A stretch of DNA of 35,659 nt, taken from positions 1-35,659 of the IMG/VR virus record IMGVR_UViG_3300029267_003811, one strand, 5' to 3'. Below are positions 13,825 through 35,659 of this stretch, piece by piece. Within the stretch, counting starts at the first letter, position 1; each line of letters begins with the position of its first letter. The translations under genes and the position numbers were made by a program. The stretch is from a virus. The notes below the pieces were generated by a model. It worked only from the letters and a program-made list of their open reading frames with translations, did no database searches and had not been told where the DNA came from.

Positions 13825-15798
13825 TTGGAATTGTCCCCAGTCACTGATCTCACCGCGGTCCAAATGGTCAATCCCGCCGGCCGGCAGGTGGAGGTCGCCG
13901 CCGAGCGGGTAGACTACCTGCTCGGCCACGGATTCCGCTACCCGACGATCGCGGACGTGCTCGCCTCGACCTCGCCGCCTCCCCCGCCTCCCCCGTCGCC
14001 TCCGCCTTCGCCGAAGGCGGCGAAGGCAGAGAAGGCGGCGGTGGTGGGGGGGGCGCCCCCCGCGGCCGCGCCTCCGCCGCCGCGCTGCCAGATATCTCAC
14101 ACTCTGATGGAGTTCGACGTCTCGCCGCGCTGCACCCGCAAGTGCAAGTTCTGTGCCCCGGGCGTCCCAGCCGGCCGGCGCACGCTGAAAAGCGGCCTGT
14201 CCCTGGAGGCGCACAACCGGGTGGTCGACGAACTCGCCGAGCTGGGTTTCAATCGCCCGGACCGCTGGGTGGTCTACTGCGGGCACGGCGACCCGCTGCT
14301 CTGTCCCTGGCTGCGCGAGGGCCTGCGCTACACCGCCAAGCGCCTGCCGGACTGCAAAATGACCGTCTACACCAACGGCGACCGGCTCGACGAGGAGATG
14401 TGCCGCTTCTTCGAGGCCATCGACCTCCACGGTCTGTTCTGGGACAACTACGGCCGGCGCCGCAAGGTCCGCGGCAAGAAGCGCAAGGCCACCGGCACGC
14501 TGGCGGACATCCGCGAGCCGGAGCTCTACGAGGACGACGCCACCACCGCGCGCGTCCTGGCGGCCATCCGCGACTCGGAGATGGATCCGGACCGGGTCTA
14601 TCTCGTGGACCACACCGCCGGCGGCGAGCCGCAGTTCTATTCCTCGCGCTGCTCCTCGCTCTACAAGCCCGACGTCTCAAAGTGGCTGGACAAGCCCTGC
14701 GGCCTGCCCAGCTACAAGCTGATGCTCACCGATGACGGCCGGGGCGGCCCTGCCTGGATGGTCTGCTGCGAGGACCTGGGCCGCCAGTCGCTCACCCCCT
14801 ACGTGCCCCTCAAGCAGTTGCTGGCCGACTGGCAGCCGAAGATCGAGGCGCTGCTGGCCGGGCGCCGGCGCGAGGCCTGGCCCATCTGCCTCAAGTGCGA
14901 TCGGGACGAGTCCACGCCGCCGGCGCTGGGCTGCACCACCAAGCTGGTGGGCTCGCGGCTCTGGCCGCCGCCGGCGCGCCTCCCGGCCGTGCCCAAGGGC
15001 AAGCGGCGGCTGGTGATCATGCCGCTGAACGCGCCCTGGCGCGCGCTCGGCGAGCTGGTGGCCCGCGCGGTGGACGAGCTCTCCACCGTGCCCGGCGAGA
15101 CGCTGCTGCTCTGGAACGACCCCCAGCCGGCCCCGGAGAGCCTCCGCGGCCCCGGCCGCGTGGTGTGGGAGTCGCCCAGCTACGGATGGAAGGGCATCGC
15201 CGTCGGCCTGGGCCGGGCCTACCGCTACGCGCTGGAGAAGGGCTTCGACTGGACAATCAAGCTTGACACCGACACCGCCATCCTGGCCCGCGGATGGGAC
15301 GCGGCGCTCTGCCACGAGTGCCCCGCCGACGCCCAGATCGGCACCTACATGGACGAGTCGCTTACCGGCTCGATGGACGCCGGCGCCCAGGACGTCTTCG
15401 GCCTGTTCCTGCGCGAGCACGGCCATTACTGCCGCTGGGCGCGCGGGATGATCCGTCGCAACCGCCGCGGCTGGGACCACCTCCAGGGCGGCCTGTACGT
15501 CTTCGGCCGGCAGGCCATGGAGAAGATCGACCGCGTGGTCGGCCTCGAGGCCGACGACCAGGAGGTGCTCTCCGAGGACGACCGCATCGGCGAGGACGTG
15601 TATTTCGACTCCAAGGCCAAGCTCTCCGGCGTCCGGCAGTCCGACTGCCGGCGGGTGCGCATCTGGTTCCGGCGCGAGGGCGCCTCGATGCGCGAGCGCT
15701 TCATTCGCTATCACCGGGACGCCCGCGGCGTGGTCGCGGTGCACCCGGTCAAGGACGCCGCGCTCCTGGAGCGGCTGCTGGAGGAGGCCCTCGGGTGA
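13825..15798 (+). CDS. Radical SAM-glycosyltransferase fusion with a small N-terminal phage domain
   Basis: This 657-residue protein starts at TTG 13825 (a second TTG is at 13831), with AGAGAGGAG as ribosome site. Residues 1-50 (VQMVNPAGRQVEVAAERVDYLLGHGFR) resemble a small domain found in phage head-tail clusters. Residues 51-88 are a Pro/Ala linker. A radical SAM domain follows, with C103-x3-C107-x2-C110 for the [4Fe-4S] cluster. A SPASM-like cysteine set is present at C292, C314/C315, C355 and C358. From about residue 390 a GT-A glycosyltransferase fold follows, with DTD at 481-483 (metal and sugar nucleotide) and a downstream DDRIGEDVYF. The reaction is unknown. It leads the sugar cassette and overlaps the next gene by GTGA. 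Confidence 0.75.
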   Translation: MELSPVTDLTAVQMVNPAGRQVEVAAERVDYLLGHGFRYPTIADVLASTSPPPPPPPSPPPSPKAAKAEKAAVVGGAPPAAAPPPPRCQISHTLMEFDVSPRCTRKCKFCAPGVPAGRRTLKSGLSLEAHNRVVDELAELGFNRPDRWVVYCGHGDPLLCPWLREGLRYTAKRLPDCKMTVYTNGDRLDEEMCRFFEAIDLHGLFWDNYGRRRKVRGKKRKATGTLADIREPELYEDDATTARVLAAIRDSEMDPDRVYLVDHTAGGEPQFYSSRCSSLYKPDVSKWLDKPCGLPSYKLMLTDDGRGGPAWMVCCEDLGRQSLTPYVPLKQLLADWQPKIEALLAGRRREAWPICLKCDRDESTPPALGCTTKLVGSRLWPPPARLPAVPKGKRRLVIMPLNAPWRALGELVARAVDELSTVPGETLLLWNDPQPAPESLRGPGRVVWESPSYGWKGIAVGLGRAYRYALEKGFDWTIKLDTDTAILARGWDAALCHECPADAQIGTYMDESLTGSMDAGAQDVFGLFLREHGHYCRWARGMIRRNRRGWDHLQGGLYVFGRQAMEKIDRVVGLEADDQEVLSEDDRIGEDVYFDSKAKLSGVRQSDCRRVRIWFRREGASMRERFIRYHRDARGVVAVHPVKDAALLERLLEEALG

Positions 15799-16403
15799 GG
15801 TACGCGCTGGTCGGCAACGGCCCCAGCGCCGCCGGGTGCGGCGCGGAGATCGACGCGCATGACCGCGTGGTCCGCTTCAACGCTTTCCCGATCTCCCAGG
15901 CCGCCGATGCCGGCCGGCGTCTGGACGTCTGGGTGTGGTTCGGATGGCTGGACTATCTCGCTCGCATGGGCGGCGCGCCGCGGGGCGAATACCAGGTGTG
16001 GATGCCGCTGCCGCTTTCCTGCTGCGGCTCCGGCGGCGTGGGCGACGCCGCGCGGATAATCGAGCAGGCCCGCGGCCGGCGCATCCGCTGGGTCTCCGAG
16101 GCCTGGCGTCGCGGCGAGGTGAGCTTCCTGGGCGGCCGTGATCCTTCCAGCGGCTTCACCGCCGTGGATATGGCGATCCGTCTGGGCGGCGCCACCGAGA
16201 TAACGCTCTACGGCTTCGACGCGGTGGCCCCGGACCGCCCCGGCTTCCACGACGCCCGCGGTCCGTTCCCTTTCATCGGCACCGCCCACCCCTGGCGCGC
16301 CGAGAAGCGGGCCTATGCCGACCTCGCCGCGCGCGGCCTGTGGATGGGCGAGCGCTGGCCGGTGCGGGTCCGCTGGCCCTCGCGGCCGGAGATCGAGTCG
16401 TGA
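15795..16403 (+). CDS. GT29 sialyltransferase-like glycosyltransferase
   Basis: This 202-residue protein starts at GTG 15795. The N-terminal block YALVGNGPSAAGCGAEID and HDRVVRFNAF matches the L-motif of family GT29 (VGNs....G.eID.hd.V.R.N). Residues 117-142, PSSGFTAVDMAIRLGG through LYGFD, match the S-motif (PstG......a...d.v.vyGF). A histidine in GFHDARG (about 153) could be the late catalytic His. GT29 enzymes use CMP-sialic acid as donor, and the next gene is a CMP-sugar synthetase. There is no membrane anchor, so it acts in the cytoplasm. The acceptor is unknown. Confidence 0.72.
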   Translation: MRYALVGNGPSAAGCGAEIDAHDRVVRFNAFPISQAADAGRRLDVWVWFGWLDYLARMGGAPRGEYQVWMPLPLSCCGSGGVGDAARIIEQARGRRIRWVSEAWRRGEVSFLGGRDPSSGFTAVDMAIRLGGATEITLYGFDAVAPDRPGFHDARGPFPFIGTAHPWRAEKRAYADLAARGLWMGERWPVRVRWPSRPEIES

Positions 16404-17134
16404 GCGTCAACGTCGCGGTGGTCACCGCCCGTCACCACTCGCCGGGCCGGCCGGAGAAGAACCTCTTCGAGCTCCGCGGCCGACCGCTGCTGGCTTACCC
16501 GGTGCTGGCCGCGCAGGGCTCGGCCCGGGTTGACCGGGTGTACTGCTCGACCGACGGCGAGGCCATCGCCGCCGCCGCGGCCGAGATGGGCTGCGAGATC
16601 GTCTGGCGGCCCGAGGGTGTGGCCGGCGACGTGCCCCACAAGGTGGTCATCCGCCACGCCGTCGAGGAGATCGCCGGCCGCCTGGGCGGCCTGTCCGCGC
16701 TGGGCTCGGTGGTGGTGCTGCTGGGCAACACGGTGATGGTCGACGCCGCGCTGATCAGCGCGGCGCTGGCCATGCTGGAGCGCGAGAGGGATATCGACGG
16801 CGTGCTCTCGGCCTGGCGCGCCCAGGACGATCACCCGCTCCGCGCGCTGGAGGAGGGTCCCGACGGCCTCGTGCGCCCCTACGGCGGCGGGCCGCGGGAC
16901 GTGGACTCCAACCGGCAGAGCTACCCGCCGGCGCTTTTCTACGACCAGGGGGTGTGGGCCTTCCGCGCCGGCTGCGCGCTGCGCGAGGACGGCCCGTCGC
17001 CCTGGACCTGGATGGGCCGGCGCTGCCGGGCCATCGTCCGCGAGTGGGTCACTGGCCGCGACGTGCACGAAGAGCTCGATGTGGCCGCCGCCGAGTGGTG
17101 GCTGGACCGGGAGGGCATCCCTTGCCGCAGATGA
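16400..17134 (+). CDS. CMP-sugar (NeuA-like) cytidylyltransferase
   Basis: The 244-residue product starts at GTG 16400 (GTGA overlap). VTARHHSPGRPEKNLFELRG is a variant of the NeuA nucleotide-binding loop (ARGGSKGIPRKNL), keeping the Arg and the KNL. RPLLAYPVLAA, DRVYCSTDGEAIAAAAAEMG and the late VHEELDVAAAEWWLD complete the family pattern. NeuA couples CTP to sialic or related nonulosonic acids to give the CMP-sugar. The usual LQPTSPLR block is replaced by LLGNTVMVD, so substrate choice may differ. No genes that synthesise the sugar acid itself are present, so it would have to come from the host. Confidence 0.75.
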   Translation: MSVNVAVVTARHHSPGRPEKNLFELRGRPLLAYPVLAAQGSARVDRVYCSTDGEAIAAAAAEMGCEIVWRPEGVAGDVPHKVVIRHAVEEIAGRLGGLSALGSVVVLLGNTVMVDAALISAALAMLERERDIDGVLSAWRAQDDHPLRALEEGPDGLVRPYGGGPRDVDSNRQSYPPALFYDQGVWAFRAGCALREDGPSPWTWMGRRCRAIVREWVTGRDVHEELDVAAAEWWLDREGIPCRR

Positions 17135-17742
17135 CCGAGGAGCGCGACTTCATCGCCGCGCGCCTGGCCGGGCGGGCCGGGCGCTTCCTGGACGTCGGAG
17201 CTTACGACGGGGTCACCGACTCCCTGACCCGGGTGCTCTTCGAGGCCGGCTGGTCCGGCGTGCTGGTCGAGCCCGACCCGCGGAGCTTCCTGGCCCTCTT
17301 CGCCAACTACGGCCCGGATATCCCCGGCGCCGAGCGCGTCGAGCTGGTGGCTGCCGCGGTGCTGCCCGACGCCGGGCTCGCGCGCTTCTGGATTTGCGAG
17401 GACCAGAGGGAGACCTCCACCGCCGCCGAGCGCTTCCGCGACTCCTTCGCCCGCACCCACGGCGCGAACTATCGCCGCGCCCACTGGCTCCACGGTCTCA
17501 CCCCCGAGGCGCTGCTGGCCGCCTTCCCCGGCGAGTTCCGCTTCCTCAACGTGGACGCCGAGGGGTTCTCCTGCGAGCTCTTCGCGCGGCTGCTGTCCGC
17601 CGGGGTGAGCGGCCTGGAGCTGGCCTGCGTCGAGCGCGACCACCAGCGCCAGGGCCTGGCCCGGGACGCGGCCGCCGCCGCCGGCCTGAAGCCGGTGCTG
17701 GAGACCGAGGTCAACCTGCTCTTCGGCCGGGAGGACGGCTAG
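17131..17742 (+). CDS. FkbM-family SAM methyltransferase
   Basis: This 203-residue protein starts at ATG 17131 (ATGA overlap). Motif I is FLDVGAYDGVTDSLTR at residues 17-32, followed by GWSGVLVEPDPRSFLALFAN, where the acidic residue binds SAM. FLNVDAEGFSCELFARLL is the conserved late FkbM block. Family members methylate hydroxyls, often on sugars or glycolipids. In this cassette it probably methylates a glycan, as capping of phage or surface sugars, but the substrate is inference. It is coupled at both ends. Confidence 0.78.
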   Translation: MTEERDFIAARLAGRAGRFLDVGAYDGVTDSLTRVLFEAGWSGVLVEPDPRSFLALFANYGPDIPGAERVELVAAAVLPDAGLARFWICEDQRETSTAAERFRDSFARTHGANYRRAHWLHGLTPEALLAAFPGEFRFLNVDAEGFSCELFARLLSAGVSGLELACVERDHQRQGLARDAAAAAGLKPVLETEVNLLFGREDG

Positions 17743-18674
17743 TGGGCATCGCCTGGGGCGTGGACGTGTTCAACCCTTGGGGGCGGCGGACCACCGTCAC
17801 CCGCGAGCGCCTGGCCTGGCTGCTCAAGGCGGGCTTCCGCCTGCCCGCGCTGCGCACCGTCGGCGAGGCCCCCGACGGCGCGGTGCTTCTGGACCTGGCC
17901 GACTGCGGGGTGGGCGACTGTTGCGCGGCGCTCGCGGCGGCCCGCTGGCTGTCCGATGCCCCGGACGGCCGGCCGCTGTGGGTGGCCTGCCGCGCCTCCT
18001 GCGCCTTCCTCTTCGCCGGCCTGGCCGAGCGGGTGATCACCGGCGAGCCGCCGGCCACCGGCTGGGGGCTGCGCCTGGACGCCGCCGCCGCGCTGCAGCA
18101 GGGGGCCCTGGACCACGCCGACCGCTACTCGGCGGTGGAGCTGCTCTGCGAGCTCGCCGGCGCCCACCCCGCGGTGCCCTGCTACGAGCCGCCGCCGGCG
18201 GATGTGGCGACCGCCCGCGCCGGCTCCCGCCCGCTGGTGCTGCTGCAGCCGCTCTCGTCCTGCCCGGCCAAGGACTGGCCGCTGGAGTGCTGGTGCGCGC
18301 TGGCCGCCCGGCTGGTCGACGGCTCGCCGCCGGCGGCCGTAGCCGTCACCCACTCCGGGCCCATCGACTGGCCGGACGGCTCGCTGCTCCCGGACGTCCT
18401 CGACCTCTGCGGCGCCCCGCTGGGCCGCGTCGCCGCGGTGGTCGCCGCCGCCGCGCTGACCGTCGCCCCGGACTCCGCGATCTTCCACCTCTCCGCCGCG
18501 GTGGGCGCGCCGGCGCTGGGCCTCTTCGGCCCCACCGGCGGGGCCGAGCACTGCCGGTGGTACCCGCAGGCCCGGGTGATCCAGGCCGAGCCGCCCGACG
18601 GCCTGGCGGCGCTCTCCGTCGGTCGGGTGGAGGACGTGTGCCGCGAGATGCTGGAGGAGGCCGGCGATGGGTAA
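17742..18674 (+). CDS. GT9 (heptosyltransferase)-like glycosyltransferase
   Basis: The 310-residue product starts at GTG 17742 (TAGTG overlap). The N-terminal 60 residues are unusual (VDVFNPWGRRTTVTRERLAW). Then LLDLADCGVGDCCAALAAARWL takes the place of the GD.... opening of GT9 enzymes. The C-terminal half is more typical: VLLQPLSSCPAKDWPLECW, then APDSAIFHLSAAVGAPALGLFGPT and HCRWYPQ, which is the nucleotide-sugar site of heptosyltransferases. The acceptor is unknown. It is last in the sugar cassette and runs 8 bases into the next structural gene. Confidence 0.7.
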   Translation: MGIAWGVDVFNPWGRRTTVTRERLAWLLKAGFRLPALRTVGEAPDGAVLLDLADCGVGDCCAALAAARWLSDAPDGRPLWVACRASCAFLFAGLAERVITGEPPATGWGLRLDAAAALQQGALDHADRYSAVELLCELAGAHPAVPCYEPPPADVATARAGSRPLVLLQPLSSCPAKDWPLECWCALAARLVDGSPPAAVAVTHSGPIDWPDGSLLPDVLDLCGAPLGRVAAVVAAAALTVAPDSAIFHLSAAVGAPALGLFGPTGGAEHCRWYPQARVIQAEPPDGLAALSVGRVEDVCREMLEEAGDG

Positions 18675-19989: not shown

Positions 19990-20312
19990 GCATGGCCGCC
20001 TACCTCGCCGCCCGCACCCGCCTCATCGCCGGCCAGCGCGTCCCGGACGTGCCGGGCATCGAGGCCGCGCGCTGGCGCTGGCTGTCCGAGCGCCACGGCT
20101 ACTTCGAGGCAGAGGGCAAGCTCGACGGCGTGGAGGCCGCCCCGGCCGCCTACCCCAACGGTGTGAGGCTCGACACCCCCTGCATCCGCCCCTTCCAGGA
20201 CGGCCTGCCCGAGGAGCCCGACGAGCTGGCCGGGGTCACCGACGCGGAGCTGACCGCTGAGGTCCGCCGGCGCGGCCTGACCGTCTCCGGCGAGGCGGTG
20301 CCCCTTGGCTAA
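19986..20312 (+). CDS. Hypothetical neck-region protein
   Basis: This 108-residue protein starts at GTG 19986 (GTGA overlap); ATG 19992 is an alternative. It begins with a helix (AAYLAARTRLIAGQ), contains WRWLSERHGYFEAEG, and ends in TDAELTAEVRRRGLTVSGE. No family was recognised. It lies between the TM protein and the 784-residue tail protein and may be structural. Confidence 0.55.
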   Translation: MSMAAYLAARTRLIAGQRVPDVPGIEAARWRWLSERHGYFEAEGKLDGVEAAPAAYPNGVRLDTPCIRPFQDGLPEEPDELAGVTDAELTAEVRRRGLTVSGEAVPLG

Positions 20313-22659
20313 CACGTACAACGATCCCAACTTCAACATCGACACCGACTGCTCGGTGGATGATCTTACCACCATCAAGGGCTCGGCGCCGGACCTGGAT
20401 GACGTCATCTGGATTTACAATGACGCCACGCTCTCCTGGACGGATGAGGATGACGCCGTTGAGCTGCAGTGCAAGCAGATTTGCTACGGCGAGACCTCCG
20501 GCGGCGCGGCTGATGCGGGTAAGCGCTTGGGCCACCGCAGCTTCACCAAGGCCGGGGTGGAGATTGTCTTCAAGGGCGACGCCTCTGACCACACGCTCTC
20601 TGGCGAGTGTGCCAACCCGGCCAGTGCGGATGACTCCTCCAAGGACATCACTCTCTACGCCCGGGGCACCCTGGCCAATCCCATAGTGTTCCGGAACGAC
20701 AACAACGCCTACGACGCTGCCCACCAGTGGAGCCACTATCATCAGTACGGATCATTCGATCAAGACTACGTGCACGATAAGTATGCTACTGCGGCCTATG
20801 ACCTGTACTGTGCAGATAGCCGTACCAACGCGGCAGAGCAGGTGTTTGACCACCTGACGGTCACTGACTGTCAGCACATCTTTTATATGATGGACAACGG
20901 GTATAAGGACCTGCCTTTGAAGGCTAGGTTCATAACCTGTCACATGGAGAATGTTGTCTGTCACATCGTCCGTAGTTACGGCAATATTCTCAAGCTCGCT
21001 GCGACCTTTGACCTCAGCGGGTTCTACGGCGTGAACAGCGGCGGAAGCTCTCTAAACTGGTACTTCGCAGGAGGCAAACTCAACGGCGGACCGGGCAAGC
21101 TCTACTTCGGAACGTGGCTTATCTCCCTCAGCGACATTCGGCCGACTGAGGTTGTCCCTGCCGACCTCGCCGCCGCTGACGCCGGCACCGGTGAGACGCT
21201 CACTGTCACCTGGTCCAATGGGGCCAGCTACGCGGCCGGCGACCTGGTGTACATCTACAACAACGCCGGCGATGGGCTCCTGTCTGTCGGTGACGCCACC
21301 GAGGGCAGCCTGGCTGTACCTGGTCTCACTGATGACCAGAGTTACACGGTCTACGCCAAGGCGACTAGTGACGGTTCCCATTTCAGCGCGGCGAGCGATA
21401 CGGACACCGCTACGCCGACGCACAGTGGCTTTGATTTTCCCGAGGCAAGCAACGTCACCGACGATGATACCGTGGACGGCGTGGCCGGCACCCTGGACCT
21501 GCCGGCGCTCAACAAGGTGGCTCCCTCGGATACGCTCCGCGGCGTCGCTGGCACCCTGGACCTGCCGGCGCTCAACAAGGTGGCGCCCTCGGACACGCTG
21601 GAAGGTGTGGCCGGCACCCTGGACCTGCCGGCGCTCAACAAGGTGGCGCCCTCGGACACGCTGGAAGGTGTGGCCGGCACCCTGGACCTGCCGGCCATCA
21701 GCGCCGTCGACCCGCTGGACACGCTGGAGGGCGCGGCCGGCACCCTGGATATCCCGGAGCTGGCCGCCGTCCTGGACACCGATACGCTCCGCGGCGTGGC
21801 CGGCACCTTCGACGCGCCCGCTTATGCGGCCGCCTACGAGGCCGGCCGGAACACACTCATCGATACCGCCGACGTCAAGGCCGGCGAGGACATCCACCAG
21901 TTAGGTGCGCACCGCACCGGCGCGCTGGACATCACCGCGCCGGGCACCCCGGTCATCGCCTGCAGCGCCACCGGCGTCACCGTGGACGGCGACGCCGGTG
22001 CCACCAACTCGGTCTATTTCCGCCAGTACGGCCCGGCCGCCGCCCCCTGGGCGCTGCTGGGCTCGCGCGCCGGCGACGGCGAGGTGGCCTACGGCGACCT
22101 CTCCGATGGTAAGTACATGTTCATGGCGGTCAGCGCCGACGCCGCCGGTAACCTTTCGTTGCCTTCGGCCGCCCGGCCGCGCTACGTCGGCGGCGATGAG
22201 CGCTCGATTCACGAGCGGGTCTGGCTCGACGCCGCGGCGGATCTCGAGGCCGAGGGGTCCCTGTCCAAGTGGCGCCTCGACCGCAAGGAGAACCGCATCC
22301 AGGACATCCTCCGCGGCGGCGAGGCCCCCGACGGCAGCCTGCCCTACCTCTGCGCCGAGTGGGGCCGCGAGACCGGCGAGGCGGCGGTCGACGAGTACGA
22401 CGAGGCCCGCGGCCGCCTGACCGTCTACCTGTTGATCAAGGACCGCGCCGGCGAAAAGGCGGGCACCTGGGACCTGGCCCGCTACGTGGCGGTCGTCCAG
22501 CAGACCTTGGAGGGCGACCGCACCCGCGGCGGCCTGGTCCTGGAGTGGTTCTGTCGCCGGGTGGAGTGCAGCCGGGACCTGGTCCGGCCCTACCGGCTGG
22601 CGGCGGTGGAGTGCGAATACACGTTCAACCCCGAGCTTGCGGCTCGGGTGAGTGTGTGA
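20305..22659 (+). CDS. Mosaic tail protein: decoration/adhesin-like body with a tail-terminator-like end
   Basis: The 784-residue product starts at ATG-like TTG 20305 (reads TTGGCTAAC). Residues 1-280 look like a beta-rich adhesin (DITLYARGTLANPIVFRNDNN; many Asp, His, Tyr) and have lower GC. Residues 285-370 resemble an Fn3 domain (LTVTWSNGASYAAGDLVYIY ... SYTVYAKATSDG). Residues 388-512 hold six 21-residue repeats (DTLxGVAGTLDLPALNKVAPS). Residues 545-620 look like a second Fn3-like unit. Residues 640-784 (RLTVYLLIKDRAG, LAAVECEYTFNP) have the strand pattern of siphophage tail terminators, the protein expected in this slot. The fusion is inference. Confidence 0.6.
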   Translation: MANTYNDPNFNIDTDCSVDDLTTIKGSAPDLDDVIWIYNDATLSWTDEDDAVELQCKQICYGETSGGAADAGKRLGHRSFTKAGVEIVFKGDASDHTLSGECANPASADDSSKDITLYARGTLANPIVFRNDNNAYDAAHQWSHYHQYGSFDQDYVHDKYATAAYDLYCADSRTNAAEQVFDHLTVTDCQHIFYMMDNGYKDLPLKARFITCHMENVVCHIVRSYGNILKLAATFDLSGFYGVNSGGSSLNWYFAGGKLNGGPGKLYFGTWLISLSDIRPTEVVPADLAAADAGTGETLTVTWSNGASYAAGDLVYIYNNAGDGLLSVGDATEGSLAVPGLTDDQSYTVYAKATSDGSHFSAASDTDTATPTHSGFDFPEASNVTDDDTVDGVAGTLDLPALNKVAPSDTLRGVAGTLDLPALNKVAPSDTLEGVAGTLDLPALNKVAPSDTLEGVAGTLDLPAISAVDPLDTLEGAAGTLDIPELAAVLDTDTLRGVAGTFDAPAYAAAYEAGRNTLIDTADVKAGEDIHQLGAHRTGALDITAPGTPVIACSATGVTVDGDAGATNSVYFRQYGPAAAPWALLGSRAGDGEVAYGDLSDGKYMFMAVSADAAGNLSLPSAARPRYVGGDERSIHERVWLDAAADLEAEGSLSKWRLDRKENRIQDILRGGEAPDGSLPYLCAEWGRETGEAAVDEYDEARGRLTVYLLIKDRAGEKAGTWDLARYVAVVQQTLEGDRTRGGLVLEWFCRRVECSRDLVRPYRLAAVECEYTFNPELAARVSV
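21466..21840 (+). repeat. Six tandem 63-bp repeats within the tail gene
   Basis: Units begin at 21466, 21529, 21592, 21655, 21718 and 21781. Units 1-3 are nearly identical; 4-6 drift. Each encodes 21 residues with a GVAGTLDLPA core. The repeats are in frame, so copy number can change without breaking the gene. Similar GT-rich repeats occur in phage tail and fibre proteins. Confidence 0.9.
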
Positions 22660-30088: not shown

Positions 30089-30334
30089 ATGCGCACTCGA
30101 ATAGAGGTTGCCCGCCGTTGGTCGAAAGCGCACGGCAAGGTCGGCCGGCGGCTTCTCGCCGCGCGCGATGCCGCCGGCCTCACCCAGGCGCAGGCCGCCC
30201 GGCTCCTGGGCGTCCACGCGGACACCCTGAGCAAGTGGGAGCGCGGCGAGCGCGAGCCCCGCCCCATCCTGGCCGCCGCCGCCCTGGCCGCGCTGGAGGG
30301 CGCGGTGGACGCCAAACGGTCTCGGCCGTCGTAA
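30089..30334 (+). CDS. XRE-family helix-turn-helix regulator (Cro-like)
   Basis: This 81-residue protein starts at ATG 30089, behind GAGGGGG. Residues 20-64 form an XRE helix-turn-helix: LLAARDAAGLTQAQAARLLG, then ADTLSKWERGEREPRP. It is a DNA-binding regulator. It lies rightward, next to the attP-like sequence and at the end of the late genes, away from the main repressor region. It may control late genes or excision. It is too short to carry more than the DNA-binding domain. Confidence 0.8.
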   Translation: MRTRIEVARRWSKAHGKVGRRLLAARDAAGLTQAQAARLLGVHADTLSKWERGEREPRPILAAAALAALEGAVDAKRSRPS

Positions 30335-30363: not shown

Positions 30364-30400
30364 TTACAAAACAGCTGCTCTACCGTTGAGCTAGGGTGGC
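30364..30400 (-). other. attP: attP core: 5' half of tRNA-Thr(TGT)
   Basis: Read on the minus strand, this segment gives an acceptor-like GCCACCC, TA, D-stem GCTC, loop AACGGTA, GAGC, A, an anticodon stem GCTGT and the loop TTTGTAA with anticodon TGT. This is the first 37 bases of a tRNA-Thr. The expected ACAGC and T arm are missing, so it is not a working tRNA. The integrase gene ends 9 bases away. Phages of this type insert by recombining such a core with the host tRNA gene. Confidence 0.75.
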
Positions 30401-30408
30401 TCTAGGCA

Positions 30409-31548
30409 TCAGCGCTTGCGCGACTTGCGCTCCTTTCGGCCTTTTCGGGCCGGTTTCCGGCAGTCCCCTGTCCTCCCCGAACTCGCTACCCGTTGGGAGC
30501 GCCTGGGGGCCGTTGGGGCCGAACCTGGACGCAAAGTGGACACCGCCTCGGCCACCATTTTCCGCGTCCTGTCGGGCAACTGGCGCGCCTCTTTGGCCCA
30601 GTCGAATCCGAGCACCAGCCGCGCGTAGCGCTCGGTGGTCACCACCGAGCTGTGCCCCAGCCAAGATTTGACCCGGTACAAGTCTACACCGGCGGCCACC
30701 AGCCAGCAAGCGCAGGTGTGCCGGAGGGCGTGGGCGCCTATGCGTGGGAGCCCCATACGCGCCCGCAGCGCGGCGAGGTGGTTGCTGAGCCTTGAGAGAT
30801 AGGGCCAGGGGATATCTCGCAGCCTGGGCGACAGGACGGCCAGCAGCAGCGGCCCTGCGGGCTGGACCAGCCAGTCTCTCGCTTTCCGCTCCCTCAACTC
30901 GATGCTTCCCGCTACTACTTGCTCCGGCGCGAGCGCGCGGAGCTCGCCCAGGCGCATGCCGGTGGTCACCAGCACGTCCATGGCGTCGCGGATCGCCGGC
31001 TTGGCCGCCTCCCAGAGCGCCGCGTACTCGGCCGGGCGCAGCCATCGGGCCGGGTGCTTCGTCTCGCGCAGATTCCGGAGCCGGGTCGCGGGGTTCGCCT
31101 CCAGGTGGCCCTTGCGGACCTCGGCGGCCAGGAAGGCCCGGACCTCGGCGATCTCCTGGTTACAGGTCCGGGCGCTCACCGTGCGCGCGCGCTTCTGCCG
31201 GTAGCGCTCCAGCCAGGCGGCGGTGAGCGCCTCGGTGCTGGCGCGGCCCACCAGCTTCCCGACCGTGGCCAGCGTGCGCCGGACGTTCCGCACGTAGCCC
31301 CAGCGGTGGTCGACCTCCAGGTCGCGCAGGTACTCCTCGGCGGCCTCGGCCAGCGGCCGGGCGGGCCCGGCCACTCCGGCGCGCTGGTTGATCTTGCGCG
31401 CGGCCACGTCGGCGGCCAGGGCGAGCGCCTCACGCCGGGTCCCCACGATGCGCACCCGCCGGCGCGTGCTGCCCGCGCCGCCCTCGCGATAGTCCACGCG
31501 CCAGATCTCCCGGCCGCGGGCGTCGGTGCCTATTTTGCGGACGGCCAT
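30409..31548 (-). CDS. int: Tyrosine-family integrase
   Basis: The 379-residue product starts at ATG 31548, sharing one base with the upstream stop (TAATG). The N-terminus has a basic arm-binding region (RREALALAADVAARK) and a core-binding domain (EYLRDLEVDHRWGYVRNVRRT). The catalytic set is present: R199 in TGMRLGELR, H273-x-x-R276 in HALRH, H299 in WLGHS and nucleophile Y308 in TTERYARL. It inserts the phage into the host tRNA gene. The last 40 residues are a basic tail (CRKPARKGRKERKSRKR). Confidence 0.93.
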   Translation of the reverse strand: MAVRKIGTDARGREIWRVDYREGGAGSTRRRVRIVGTRREALALAADVAARKINQRAGVAGPARPLAEAAEEYLRDLEVDHRWGYVRNVRRTLATVGKLVGRASTEALTAAWLERYRQKRARTVSARTCNQEIAEVRAFLAAEVRKGHLEANPATRLRNLRETKHPARWLRPAEYAALWEAAKPAIRDAMDVLVTTGMRLGELRALAPEQVVAGSIELRERKARDWLVQPAGPLLLAVLSPRLRDIPWPYLSRLSNHLAALRARMGLPRIGAHALRHTCACWLVAAGVDLYRVKSWLGHSSVVTTERYARLVLGFDWAKEARQLPDRTRKMVAEAVSTLRPGSAPTAPRRSQRVASSGRTGDCRKPARKGRKERKSRKR

Positions 31549-32045
31549 TACTCGGGGGGTTGCGGGGCTTCTGCCTCTTCCGTCAGTGCTTTTATTCCCT
31601 CATCGGCGCAGCGGATATCGTATTCGGCCGCGACCCGGATAGCGGCGAGCCCGGCGAGCCTTCGCTGCGCGTTGAGCTTGAGAGTCCTTAGCCTCCAGAT
31701 GGGCTTGTGGTTAGGCTGGAGTTTCCTCTCTCGCTTTCCTCTCACAAGCCAGAACGTTTTGTCCCCGCGACATTTAGGGCAGACCACAGGAAAAGGAGTA
31801 ACGCCCGTGCCCTCGCAGGAAGGGCATGGAATGTGTTCCTGGGTTATTTCCTTCTTTTGTTTGTTCCAAACCCATACGGGTATGATCTTACGTCCGCGAC
31901 AAGAGGGGCAGCGTTCCTTCACTTCCCCGGTACCCTTGCATTTTTCGCAGGGGACCTTGGTTATTTCTATGATCTTCTTCTCCGCCTCTCCTGCCACCGC
32001 CGCCAGCGGCAGCACCAACGCCAGGATCATCAGCGCGCGTTTCAT
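31548..32045 (-). CDS. Exported DnaJ-zinc-finger-like protein (lysogeny operon)
   Basis: The 165-residue product starts at ATG 32045, behind GAAGGAGGAGAC, with ATGA overlap. A signal peptide is evident: MKRALMILALVLPLAAVAGE, with an AVA-G-like cleavage site at about 18. The mature part carries four CxxC pairs in two DnaJ-like sets (CEKCKGTG ... CPSC; CPSCEGTG ... CPKC). It lacks a J domain. The DNA is less GC-rich than its neighbours. Being exported and expressed with repressor and integrase, it could change the lysogen's envelope or exclude other phages, but that is inference. Confidence 0.65.
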   Translation of the reverse strand: MKRALMILALVLPLAAVAGEAEKKIIEITKVPCEKCKGTGEVKERCPSCRGRKIIPVWVWNKQKKEITQEHIPCPSCEGTGVTPFPVVCPKCRGDKTFWLVRGKRERKLQPNHKPIWRLRTLKLNAQRRLAGLAAIRVAAEYDIRCADEGIKALTEEAEAPQPPE

Positions 32046-32362
32046 GTCTCCTCCTTCTTCTCAATGGCCCTCACCAGCCGCACCAGCACCACCGCTCCTC
32101 GCAGGAGCGGGCGGGCGCCGAGGAAGATGATAGCTCCCCCGATCGCGATCGCCAGGGACACGGCGGCGGCCGCGGCGGGGAACTCCTCTCGCTGCGCCAT
32201 GCAGACCAGCAAGCCGATGCCGCCGGCCAGCACGGAGAACGCGCCGACGAGGTGAAGCATGCTCTCCAGGATGCTGACCGACGAGAGGAAGGAATACAGG
32301 ACCGGGTCGGTCTCGGTCTGCCACCAGGGCGGGGGCTTCGGTGGGCGCGTCCCATTCATCAT
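32042..32362 (-). CDS. Two-TM membrane protein in the lysogeny operon
   Basis: A 106-residue protein starts at ATG 32362, overlapping the repressor stop; ATG 32359 is equally possible. The ribosome site is GGAGG. After a Pro-rich N-terminus (PPKPPPWW), two hydrophobic spans are seen: LESMLHLVGAFSVLAGGIGLLV and AAAVSLAIAIGGAIIFLGA, with a charged C-terminus (EKKEET). It is holin-like in topology, but its place in the lysogeny operon suggests superinfection exclusion or a moron role. Confidence 0.6.
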   Translation of the reverse strand: MMNGTRPPKPPPWWQTETDPVLYSFLSSVSILESMLHLVGAFSVLAGGIGLLVCMAQREEFPAAAAAVSLAIAIGGAIIFLGARPLLRGAVVLVRLVRAIEKKEET

Positions 32363-32856
32363 CCATCCTCCGCCGCCCTTCCCGCGCCGTAGCCGGGCTC
32401 GCGCTCGCGGGCCCGGTCCTCGGCCGTGCGCTGCGGCCGCGGCTGGCCGTCGTTCACGCAGTAAGGCACTCCATCCTTGTATGTGTTTCGGCACCGAGGA
32501 CATATCCAGTATCCCTTCGTGTAGCGCTTCACGCAGTCGGTCAGCCGGGGTAAAGGCTCCCCTGGGTTGGGTTCGCGCGGCTGGGGATTTTCATCCGAAA
32601 GCCGCCACCCGATCCGAGGTAAGTACTCCGGGCTGCCGGCTACCGCGCGGGATATTTTCGCCAGAGTGTCCGCGCGCACCGCTCCGCCGTTCTCCAGTTT
32701 CCATATCGTTTTTTCGGTCAGGCCTGTTTCCCGGGCGAGTTGCGCCCGGCTTATGAAGCAGTTCATTTCCCGTAGCTCCTTGACCTTGGCCCCGATACGA
32801 GCCCAATTCATCGGCTTCTTGTGTTCCGGAACTTTTCCGGAGTTTTTCCTTGACAT
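32359..32856 (-). CDS. Phage repressor: XRE helix-turn-helix with a C-terminal zinc ribbon
   Basis: The 165-residue product starts at ATG 32856 (in-frame alternatives include ATG 32811). The N-terminus has a helix-turn-helix: VKELREMNCFISRAQLARE, GLTEKTIWKLENGG. The C-terminal third has GYWICPRCRNTYKDGVPYC, a zinc ribbon, not the LexA-like peptidase domain of lambda CI. No ribosome site is evident before ATG 32856, and it starts where the rightward promoter's -35 begins. A leaderless message, as for lambda cI from PRM, is possible. It is first in a coupled leftward operon and probably maintains lysogeny. Confidence 0.75.
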   Translation of the reverse strand: MSRKNSGKVPEHKKPMNWARIGAKVKELREMNCFISRAQLARETGLTEKTIWKLENGGAVRADTLAKISRAVAGSPEYLPRIGWRLSDENPQPREPNPGEPLPRLTDCVKRYTKGYWICPRCRNTYKDGVPYCVNDGQPRPQRTAEDRAREREPGYGAGRAAEDG

Positions 32857-32873
32857 TACGGTAAAATCCGGTA
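32824..32873. promoter_or_regulatory. Candidate repressor operators (CCGG-centred half-sites)
   Basis: TTCCGGAA (32824-32831), TTCCGGAG (32835-32842) and ATCCGGTA (32866-32873) are similar 8-mers. The first is a perfect palindrome. Centre distances are 11 and 31 bases, close to one and three helical turns. TTAC-G-GTAA (32856-32864) is another dyad in the same interval. The set overlaps the promoter and the repressor's first codons. Confidence 0.5.
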
Positions 32874-32877
32874 CACT
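32850..32877 (+). promoter_or_regulatory. Rightward early promoter (PR-like)
   Basis: TTGACA at 32850-32855 is a perfect -35. TACACT at 32872-32877 matches four of six positions of the -10, with 16 bases between. Transcription would start at about 32884 and enter the 32907 gene. The -35 overlaps the repressor's start codon on the other strand, and operator-like sites lie on both sides. Confidence 0.75.
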
Positions 32878-32906
32878 GTTGCTGTGGCTGCTGGAGGTGG
32901 CTGGAA

Positions 32907-33536
32907 ATGACCACAATCAATCTGGTGACCGGAGAGGGGCGGACGGCACGCGGGCGCAAGGCCCGGCCTCCAGCAGCCACTGTAGGTTCCGTCCGTCCTT
33001 CCCCGGCCGTTGCCGTTTGGGGGCTCGGCCCCCAGGGGGGGGTATTGGACGTGCCGACTCCGCCGACGGACCTGCCCGCGCGCGTGCGGGGGCGGCTCCA
33101 GCGGATAGCCTACGCCTGCGCCTTCGCCCGCGCCGGAGAGGCCGGCGGAGCCCGCCGCTGCCCGCACAAGGGCTGCCCCCTCTGGCCCCACCGCCTGGGC
33201 CGCTGGGCCGAATACCAGGGGACCAACGCGCCCGAGGGCGAGATGGTTGCCTACCTTGACGGGCTCACCGGGGGACCCCCGCCGGCGGCCCGGGTCGAGT
33301 GCGTAGCTAAGGGCGATCCGCGCCCGGTCCAAGTCCCGCTCTTCGGCGCACTTGCGAAAGCCAAAAATGACGCTTTCGGGCCTGCCGGTAGGGTGGTACC
33401 CACAGCCCCTAATTTCAGAGTTAGCTACGCGCATTGCGAGTCCTGCGGCCGGGAGTTCTCGCCGCGGCGCAAGAGCGCCAAGTACTGTTCCCGGGCCTGC
33501 GCTGACCGCGCCTACCGGAAGAGGGTACGGGCGTGA
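32907..33536 (+). CDS. Early zinc-finger protein, first gene of the rightward operon
   Basis: The 209-residue product starts at ATG 32907, behind GGAGGTGG. The C-terminus is a zinc finger: CESCGREFSPRRKSAKYCSRAC, then ADRAYRKRVRA. A middle segment, RRCPHKGCPLWPHRLGRW, adds cysteines and histidines. The N-terminal 50 residues are Pro/Ala/Arg-rich. It occupies the cro position but has no helix-turn-helix. It probably binds DNA as an early regulator. It overlaps the next frame by GTGA. Confidence 0.65.
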   Translation: MTTINLVTGEGRTARGRKARPPAATVGSVRPSPAVAVWGLGPQGGVLDVPTPPTDLPARVRGRLQRIAYACAFARAGEAGGARRCPHKGCPLWPHRLGRWAEYQGTNAPEGEMVAYLDGLTGGPPPAARVECVAKGDPRPVQVPLFGALAKAKNDAFGPAGRVVPTAPNFRVSYAHCESCGREFSPRRKSAKYCSRACADRAYRKRVRA

Positions 33537-33829: not shown

Positions 33830-34356
33830 GTGAGAACCCGGTCGCCGCGCTGCGCCGCCGCGCCGCGCTCAGCTTCGACGAGCGCGACGGCTTCTGCCGC
33901 CGCCTGGCCTCGGACATCGAGGAGGCCGGCGGCGTGAAGCTGGTCGCGCTGCTCATGGGGCGCGCGGCCAGCACCGTCTACGGCTGGTTCGGCAGCCGGG
34001 ACTCCGACGCGGTGTTCCTGCCGCTGGCCGGGCTGGTCAAGCTGGTGGGCGGCGGCGGCGAGACCGTCCGCGCGCTCTCCCGCCTGGCCGGCGGGGCCTT
34101 CGTGCCCCACGTCGAGGGCGCGCTCCCGGAGGGCCGGGGCCTCGACGCGCGCGAGATGCAGCTCCGCTGGGCCCAGGGGGTGCTGGCCGGGAGCGCGGCG
34201 CTGGTCGAGGAGTTCCTGGCCGCCGGCGCCGACGGCCGCTTCTCGCGCCGCGAGCGGCGCGCGCTGGCCGCGCGGGTCCAGGATCTCGAGGAGGCCGTCG
34301 GCGTGCTGCGGCTGCTGGCCGCCGGCAAGCTCGCCTGCGGGGAGGACGGGGAGTGA
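33826..34356 (+). CDS. CII-like phage regulatory protein
   Basis: The 176-residue product starts at ATG 33826, behind GGAGAAAG. Residues 30-100 (EEAGGVKLVALLMGRAASTVYGWF ... FLPLAGLVKLVGGGGETVRALSRLAGGAFVP) resemble the phage CII regulator family. These proteins help choose between lysis and lysogeny. The C-terminus is helical and charged (LEEAVGVLRLLAAG). It sits in the rightward early operon, before a small excisionase-like gene. Confidence 0.65.
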   Translation: MSENPVAALRRRAALSFDERDGFCRRLASDIEEAGGVKLVALLMGRAASTVYGWFGSRDSDAVFLPLAGLVKLVGGGGETVRALSRLAGGAFVPHVEGALPEGRGLDAREMQLRWAQGVLAGSAALVEEFLAAGADGRFSRRERRALAARVQDLEEAVGVLRLLAAGKLACGEDGE

Positions 34357-34598
34357 GGCCGGTCCCCGAGGTCGCGCGGCGGCGGTCGCTGCCCGAGTGG
34401 CTGACCACCGCCGAGGTCGCGGGCATGGCGAGGGTGAGCCTGGACACCGTGCGCAAGGAAGTATTCAAGCGGCGGCTGCGCCGGGCGCCGCGGGTGCGCG
34501 CCGGCTTCTACTGGCGCGACGTGCTCAGATGGCTCAGGGACCGCGGCCAGCTCGCGCCGGAGTGGGCCGAGCTCCTGGGGCCGGAGGGGATGGGGTGA
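34353..34598 (+). CDS. AlpA/MerR-type helix-turn-helix protein (possible excisionase)
   Basis: This 81-residue protein starts at GTG 34353 (GTGA overlap). Its core, LTTAEVAGMARVSLDTVRKEVFKRRLRRA, followed by FYWRDVLRWLRDRG, is the winged helix-turn-helix of AlpA and excisionase proteins. In phages with a tyrosine integrase such a protein often directs excision or represses the integrase promoter. It lies in the early operon, about 2.8 kb beyond the integrase's 5' end. Confidence 0.72.
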   Translation: MRPVPEVARRRSLPEWLTTAEVAGMARVSLDTVRKEVFKRRLRRAPRVRAGFYWRDVLRWLRDRGQLAPEWAELLGPEGMG

Positions 34599-35518: not shown

Positions 35519-35641
35519 ATGGGACGCAACACGAGAGGCAAGCGGGACGGGACCGGGCCCCACAAGGGCAGCTACCAGCGCCGCACCAGCGGCACGGGGC
35601 GCCGGCAGGCCGCCGGCCAGAAGTGCCCGAAGCGGCGCTGA
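35519..35641 (+). CDS. Small basic protein at the circle junction
   Basis: This 40-residue protein starts at ATG 35519, behind AGGAAAGGAG. It is Gly/Lys/Arg-rich, with repeated GR/RR and one Cys (GQKCPKRR). Most of it is repeated at 1-116 because of the circular overlap. It links the early operon across the junction into the genes at 131 onward. The function could be nucleic-acid binding. Confidence 0.6.
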   Translation: MGRNTRGKRDGTGPHKGSYQRRTSGTGRRQAAGQKCPKRR

Positions 35642-35659
35642 GGGGTGCGCCGAGCGTGA
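35526..35659. repeat. Terminal direct repeat, right copy
   Basis: Identical to 1-134. See the left copy: it marks circular closure, so the 35519-35641 gene is the complete version and 1-116 is its second appearance. Confidence 0.95.

Follow-up and report, generated by a model that had tools for sequence, protein, structure and literature searches.

A tRNA-Thr(UGU) 5' half beside a tyrosine integrase gene: a probable phage attachment site at the anticodon loop

Introduction

Why should a phage genome hold half of a tRNA gene right behind its integrase gene, and what would follow for the host if that half were the place of integration? The window considered here, a viral IMG/VR record of 35,659 nucleotides analysed as a whole, raises this question at positions 30364-30400, which a sequence-only reading took for an attP containing the 5' half of tRNA-Thr(TGT). 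The answer preferred here, with a probability of about 0.88, is that 30364-30400 is the core of the phage attP and that the adjacent tyrosine integrase inserts the phage at the anticodon loop of the host tRNA-Thr(UGU). The half tRNA, its exact limits, its position beside the integrase gene (int) and the gene order are directly established.

Integration through a 5' half reverses the usual logic, in that transcription of a host tRNA that is essential would fall to the phage. The compact and fully readable arrangement of regulator, int and attP makes this phage a clear case for how such prophages keep the tRNA expressed, and the point of main interest is how the rebuilt tRNA would be transcribed by way of the regulator-int operon. 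The record ends in an exact direct repeat of 134 bp (1-134 and 35526-35659) and is therefore a complete circular map of 35525 bases (~35.5 kb; 71% G+C), with attP lying within it.

The tRNA half and its limits

On the minus strand, 30364-30400 reads GCCACCCTAGCTCAACGGTAGAGCAGCTGTTTTGTAA, which corresponds to positions 1-38 of tRNA-Thr(UGU): it opens with base 1 and closes with the final base of the anticodon loop, and the 3' half is wholly absent. Read as a tRNA, the sequence consists of the 5' strand of the acceptor stem (GCCACCC) followed by TA; a D stem (GCTC/GAGC) with the loop AACGGTA, followed by A26; and the 5' strand of the anticodon stem (GCTGT) with the loop TTTGTAA, which holds the anticodon TGT. 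Past the loop the DNA is unrelated, with TATGCGC where the tRNA needs ACAGC, and TATGC is unable to pair. Nowhere else in the whole window does the 37-mer match with fewer than 16 mismatches out of 37, which excludes a chance resemblance to tRNA-Thr. The sequence-only reading was thus right to the base, both in where it placed the 5' half and in having the match stop at the anticodon loop.

Natural tRNA-Thr(TGT) genes share up to 35 of the 37 bases with the phage half, and a gut phage, cr108_1, has a tRNA-Thr that agrees with it at all 30 bases of the stretch running from D arm to anticodon loop. ARAGORN and Rfam find no complete tRNA in the whole window; neither Rfam at 30364-30400 nor ARAGORN on attP alone calls a tRNA, as expected where only half of one is present. 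When the phage half was joined in silico to natural 3' halves (those of loci L003, L041, L060, and L007, the true host's not being among them), ARAGORN called tRNA-Thr(tgt) in all four hybrids.

These limits bear on whether the half tRNA could instead be what decay has left of a tRNA-Thr gene that the phage once carried or captured, with no role in integration. Complete tRNA-Thr genes that resemble it in sequence are common among phages, and no exact bacterial copy of the 37-mer was found among 84,980 species genomes, as might be expected of such a remnant. Random decay, however, would not pick limits that run from tRNA base 1 to the exact end of the anticodon loop; moreover, the base-pairing partners of the D arm are all intact and int is only 8 bp away, so that decay is an improbable origin for this sequence. 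Still less probable, to the point of being hardly credible here, is tRNA-dependent lysogeny, in which the phage interrupts the host tRNA gene on entry and makes up for the loss with a complete tRNA of its own. This mode is known among actinobacteriophages, but the core there is ~8-10 bp and the phage brings an entire tRNA of matching isotype (PMC10865867), whereas the tRNA half here measures 37 bp and neither ARAGORN nor Rfam finds a complete tRNA gene in the phage.

Integrase and the operon leading into attP

The int gene (30409-31548, minus strand) encodes a tyrosine recombinase of 379 aa that matches PF00589 (E 2.8e-14) and phrog_1 (E 2.7e-43); in the PDB it comes closest to HP1 integrase and to 5c6k, a further integrase chain, taken to be that of P2. 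Residues R199, H273 and R276 (in the motif HALR, 273-276), H299, and Y308 sit in the expected catalytic motifs. The tRNA half is on the same strand as int, and the gap between the int stop codon and tRNA base 1 is 8 bp (30401-30408).

Three further minus-strand genes precede int. The first (32359-32916) encodes a Cro/C1-type HTH regulator (HTH_26, E 2.4e-6), a candidate repressor, whose true start is probably within the listed ORF. It is followed by a gene for a putative membrane protein (32042-32362, likely start ATG near 32362), with 4-nt overlaps at both ends, and by one for a CxxCxGxG (DnaJ central-domain/zinc-finger-like) protein with a signal-like N terminus (31548-32045), which has a 1-nt overlap with the start of int. 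The minus-strand order is therefore regulator, membrane protein, CxxCxGxG protein, int, and half tRNA; the four genes overlap by 4, 4, and 1 nt, and a Shine-Dalgarno-like sequence precedes two of the starts. No terminator-like site was found on the minus strand between int and attP, and a scan that covers one promoter type (sigma-70-like) detected no promoter-like site ahead of the tRNA half on this strand. Judged from this layout, the genes from the regulator to int look like a single operon that continues directly into the half tRNA. The CxxCxGxG protein gene is placed between the regulator and int within this candidate lysogeny operon.

At 32811-32907 there is a divergent intergenic switch, with a rightward promoter-like site (TTGACA-16-TACACT) and an inverted repeat, GTTCCGGAACTTTTCCGGAGT, that is a candidate operator. 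Two further HTH proteins are encoded on the plus strand: a small one (34353-34598) with a weak match (E 4.2e-4) to phrog_66, annotated as excisionase and transcriptional regulator, and an HTH_3 (Cro/C1-like) protein (30089-30334; E 1.5e-12) on the other side of attP, its gene ending 29 bp from the core. The claim that the attachment site proves temperance was too strong, no lysogen or junction having been found in the collections searched; int, the Cro/C1-type HTH gene and the weak excisionase-family match make temperance likely, and with integrase, repressor-like regulator and attP together in one genome, the phage is probably temperate.

Integration and transcription of the rebuilt tRNA

For tyrosine integrases that enter tRNA genes, the 7-bp anticodon loop is a frequent site of strand exchange (PMC8371274). 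By this pattern Int would exchange strands across TTTGTAA, the predicted overlap region (30364-30370, minus strand), which is exactly where tRNA identity stops; tRNA identity that includes the loop and ends with it fits a shared block made up of one core arm and the overlap. Repeats around attP that might represent arm-type sites are, by our own estimate, no more frequent than chance. At the int-proximal end, integration would fuse the phage 5' half to the host 3' half into an intact tRNA-Thr; the displaced host 5' half, together with the host promoter, would come to lie at the far end. The rebuilt gene would be located 8 bp behind int, on the same strand and at the end of the minus-strand operon.

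Since the host promoter would be left at the far end, the rebuilt tRNA would need phage transcription; that the phage, not the host, would have to supply its promoter is a point beyond the sequence-only reading. The simplest sources within the phage DNA would be read-through from the regulator-to-int genes or a promoter inside int, and RNase P would trim the 5' end of the tRNA.

A dedicated promoter in the 3' end of int could drive the rebuilt tRNA independently of the regulator-int operon. Essential tRNAs require steady expression and int expression in lysogens is often low, both of which suit such a promoter; on the other hand, no sigma-70-like site was found in the int 3' end, and read-through is favored by the close packing of the operon genes and by the gap of just 8 bp before the tRNA. 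Neither of the latter points is decisive, and we regard a dedicated promoter as a serious contender whose chances fall somewhat short of even. Should transcription instead come through the operon, the essential host tRNA-Thr(UGU) would in lysogens form the final cistron of the phage operon that leads from the regulator to int, and translation would depend on the phage immunity transcript and drop when the operon is shut off. This full chain of dependence is a tentative proposal and is rather doubtful as it stands; if true, dependence of the host on its prophage would be built in.

Search for the host, the prophage, and relatives

The half tRNA is a host marker, though the host is missing from present collections. 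Its use as a 37-base probe, which the sequence-only reading had proposed, failed in the collections at hand: the exact 37-mer is found neither in the 84,980 species genomes nor in other IMG/VR contigs. A degenerate 37-mer, which required C at position 6 and C or T at position 7 and would therefore miss other acceptor stems, matched 67 loci in genome contigs, mostly Patescibacteria by record title, and the nearest of these has 2 mismatches. With up to 3 mismatches allowed, three phyla were searched: the 37-mer has one match (3 mismatches) among 341 genomes from that of the Elusimicrobia, one (3 mismatches) among 291 from that of the Fimbriimonadia, and none among 388 from that of the Verrucomicrobiales. 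In IMG/VR, a degenerate pattern from the D arm to the loop retrieved 35 loci; on visual inspection each is a complete tRNA gene, and no other 5'-half attP is among them.

Searches of IMG/VR with the int, capsid, terminase, portal, and DnaB proteins gave no viral or prophage relatives; megablast of both window halves against phages gave no match; and attL/attR prophage junctions were not found in the collections searched. Two possible clues to the host are the 71% GC content and the tRNA-Thr of a Myxococcus phage (28/30 match). Lack of the exact core in any bacterial tRNA-Thr had been named in the sequence-only reading as a result that would refute it; such is the outcome in the sequences searched, and its simplest cause is an unsampled host. 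The host is most likely absent from present collections, and the missing exact 37-mer does not by itself count against the attP reading.

Among the 67 loci matching the degenerate pattern, one alone is broken at the anticodon loop. This locus, at 1619-1655 of an Elusimicrobia MAG contig, is a tRNA-Thr(TGT) 5' half with a normal upstream region of its own, and it breaks at the same base as the phage half into foreign-looking DNA with a gene pair labelled AbiE-like by reading of the ORFs, not by family search. The corresponding rebuilt tRNA-Thr is absent from that MAG. From its structure, this half is likely the end displaced when another element of the 5' type entered the tRNA-Thr gene at the identical position.

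Other features of the phage genome

The late-gene region includes a set of sugar/modification genes (13825-18674), flanked by the major capsid gene on one side and the tail genes on the other; they encode a radical SAM protein, a cytidylyltransferase (CTP_transf_3), an FkbM-like methyltransferase (its match just under the Pfam cut-off), and a GT9 heptosyltransferase-like protein, and may possibly alter host surface glycans. A recent partial duplication is seen in the near-identical C-terminal stretch, AKELLRIEA.RTERLTATIR.ACDYGISDVGPDSGRITARAITILSQAAG, of the adjacent ORFs 252-722 and 700-1203. An ORF of 784 aa (20305-22659) contains tandem protein repeats of ~20 aa (LRGVAGTLDLPALNKVAPSDT).

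Comparison with known tRNA-gene integration systems

Phages that use the 3' half of a tRNA, such as mycobacteriophages Nibb, Validus, and others, likewise have a tyrosine integrase beside a tRNA-derived attP, but they carry the 3' end of the tRNA, so that the host promoter is kept, unlike what is predicted for the phage described here. A motif scan of the phage records of 12 distant integrase relatives found a tRNA or tmRNA 3' end near int in seven, upstream of int in Validus, Phrappuccino, Nibb, Faith5x5, and GMA1, and downstream of int on the other strand in Ssp-JY37 and Sc-Yong805-1; five show neither end, and a tRNA 5' half beside int occurs in none of the 12. On the strength of these counts, the present phage departs from its distant integrase kin in the tRNA half that it carries. 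Phages with tRNA-dependent lysogeny, e.g., Fionnbharth, also target an essential tRNA gene and have lysogens that depend on a phage tRNA sequence, but they carry a full tRNA gene and the host tRNA is not rebuilt, unlike the arrangement proposed here (PMC10865867).

The site, which is well preserved, belongs to an uncommon but already known type of tRNA-gene entry, the "5' fragment" type: the tRNA sequence in attP starts at the 5' end of the gene and stops inside it, a tyrosine integrase gene adjoins it, and the core rebuilds a tRNA in silico with natural 3' halves. Integration by the 5' half is seldom met in bacteria (PMC8371274), and the full-text literature on bacterial cases yielded little beyond Islander (PMC4383910) and an archaeal review (PMC8371274). 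Of 3919 islands in Islander, 159 (~4%) hold the 5' fragment of a tDNA and the other 3760 the 3' fragment (PMC4383910), in agreement with the sequence-only reading, which had set the 5' half apart as unusual beside the 3' half. In the 5' class of Islander, as predicted for this phage, the element supplies the 5' part of the tRNA gene and displaces the host 5' fragment; a tyrosine integrase is likewise common to both, and the anticodon-loop crossover is one Islander site class (PMC4383910). The phage differs in being known in excised form alone, so that both of its junctions are predictions.

Similar in logic are the archaeal pTN3-like elements, from another domain of life, in which attP is also a tRNA 5' half (41 bp of tRNA-Leu in pTN3) and the rebuilt tRNA loses its own promoter and is expressed from the integrase promoter (PMC5495485; PMC8371274), which we count as a likeness to the phage. 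Integration of pTN3-like elements disrupts int, whereas in the phage the core is outside int, 8 bp past the stop codon, and int would stay whole.
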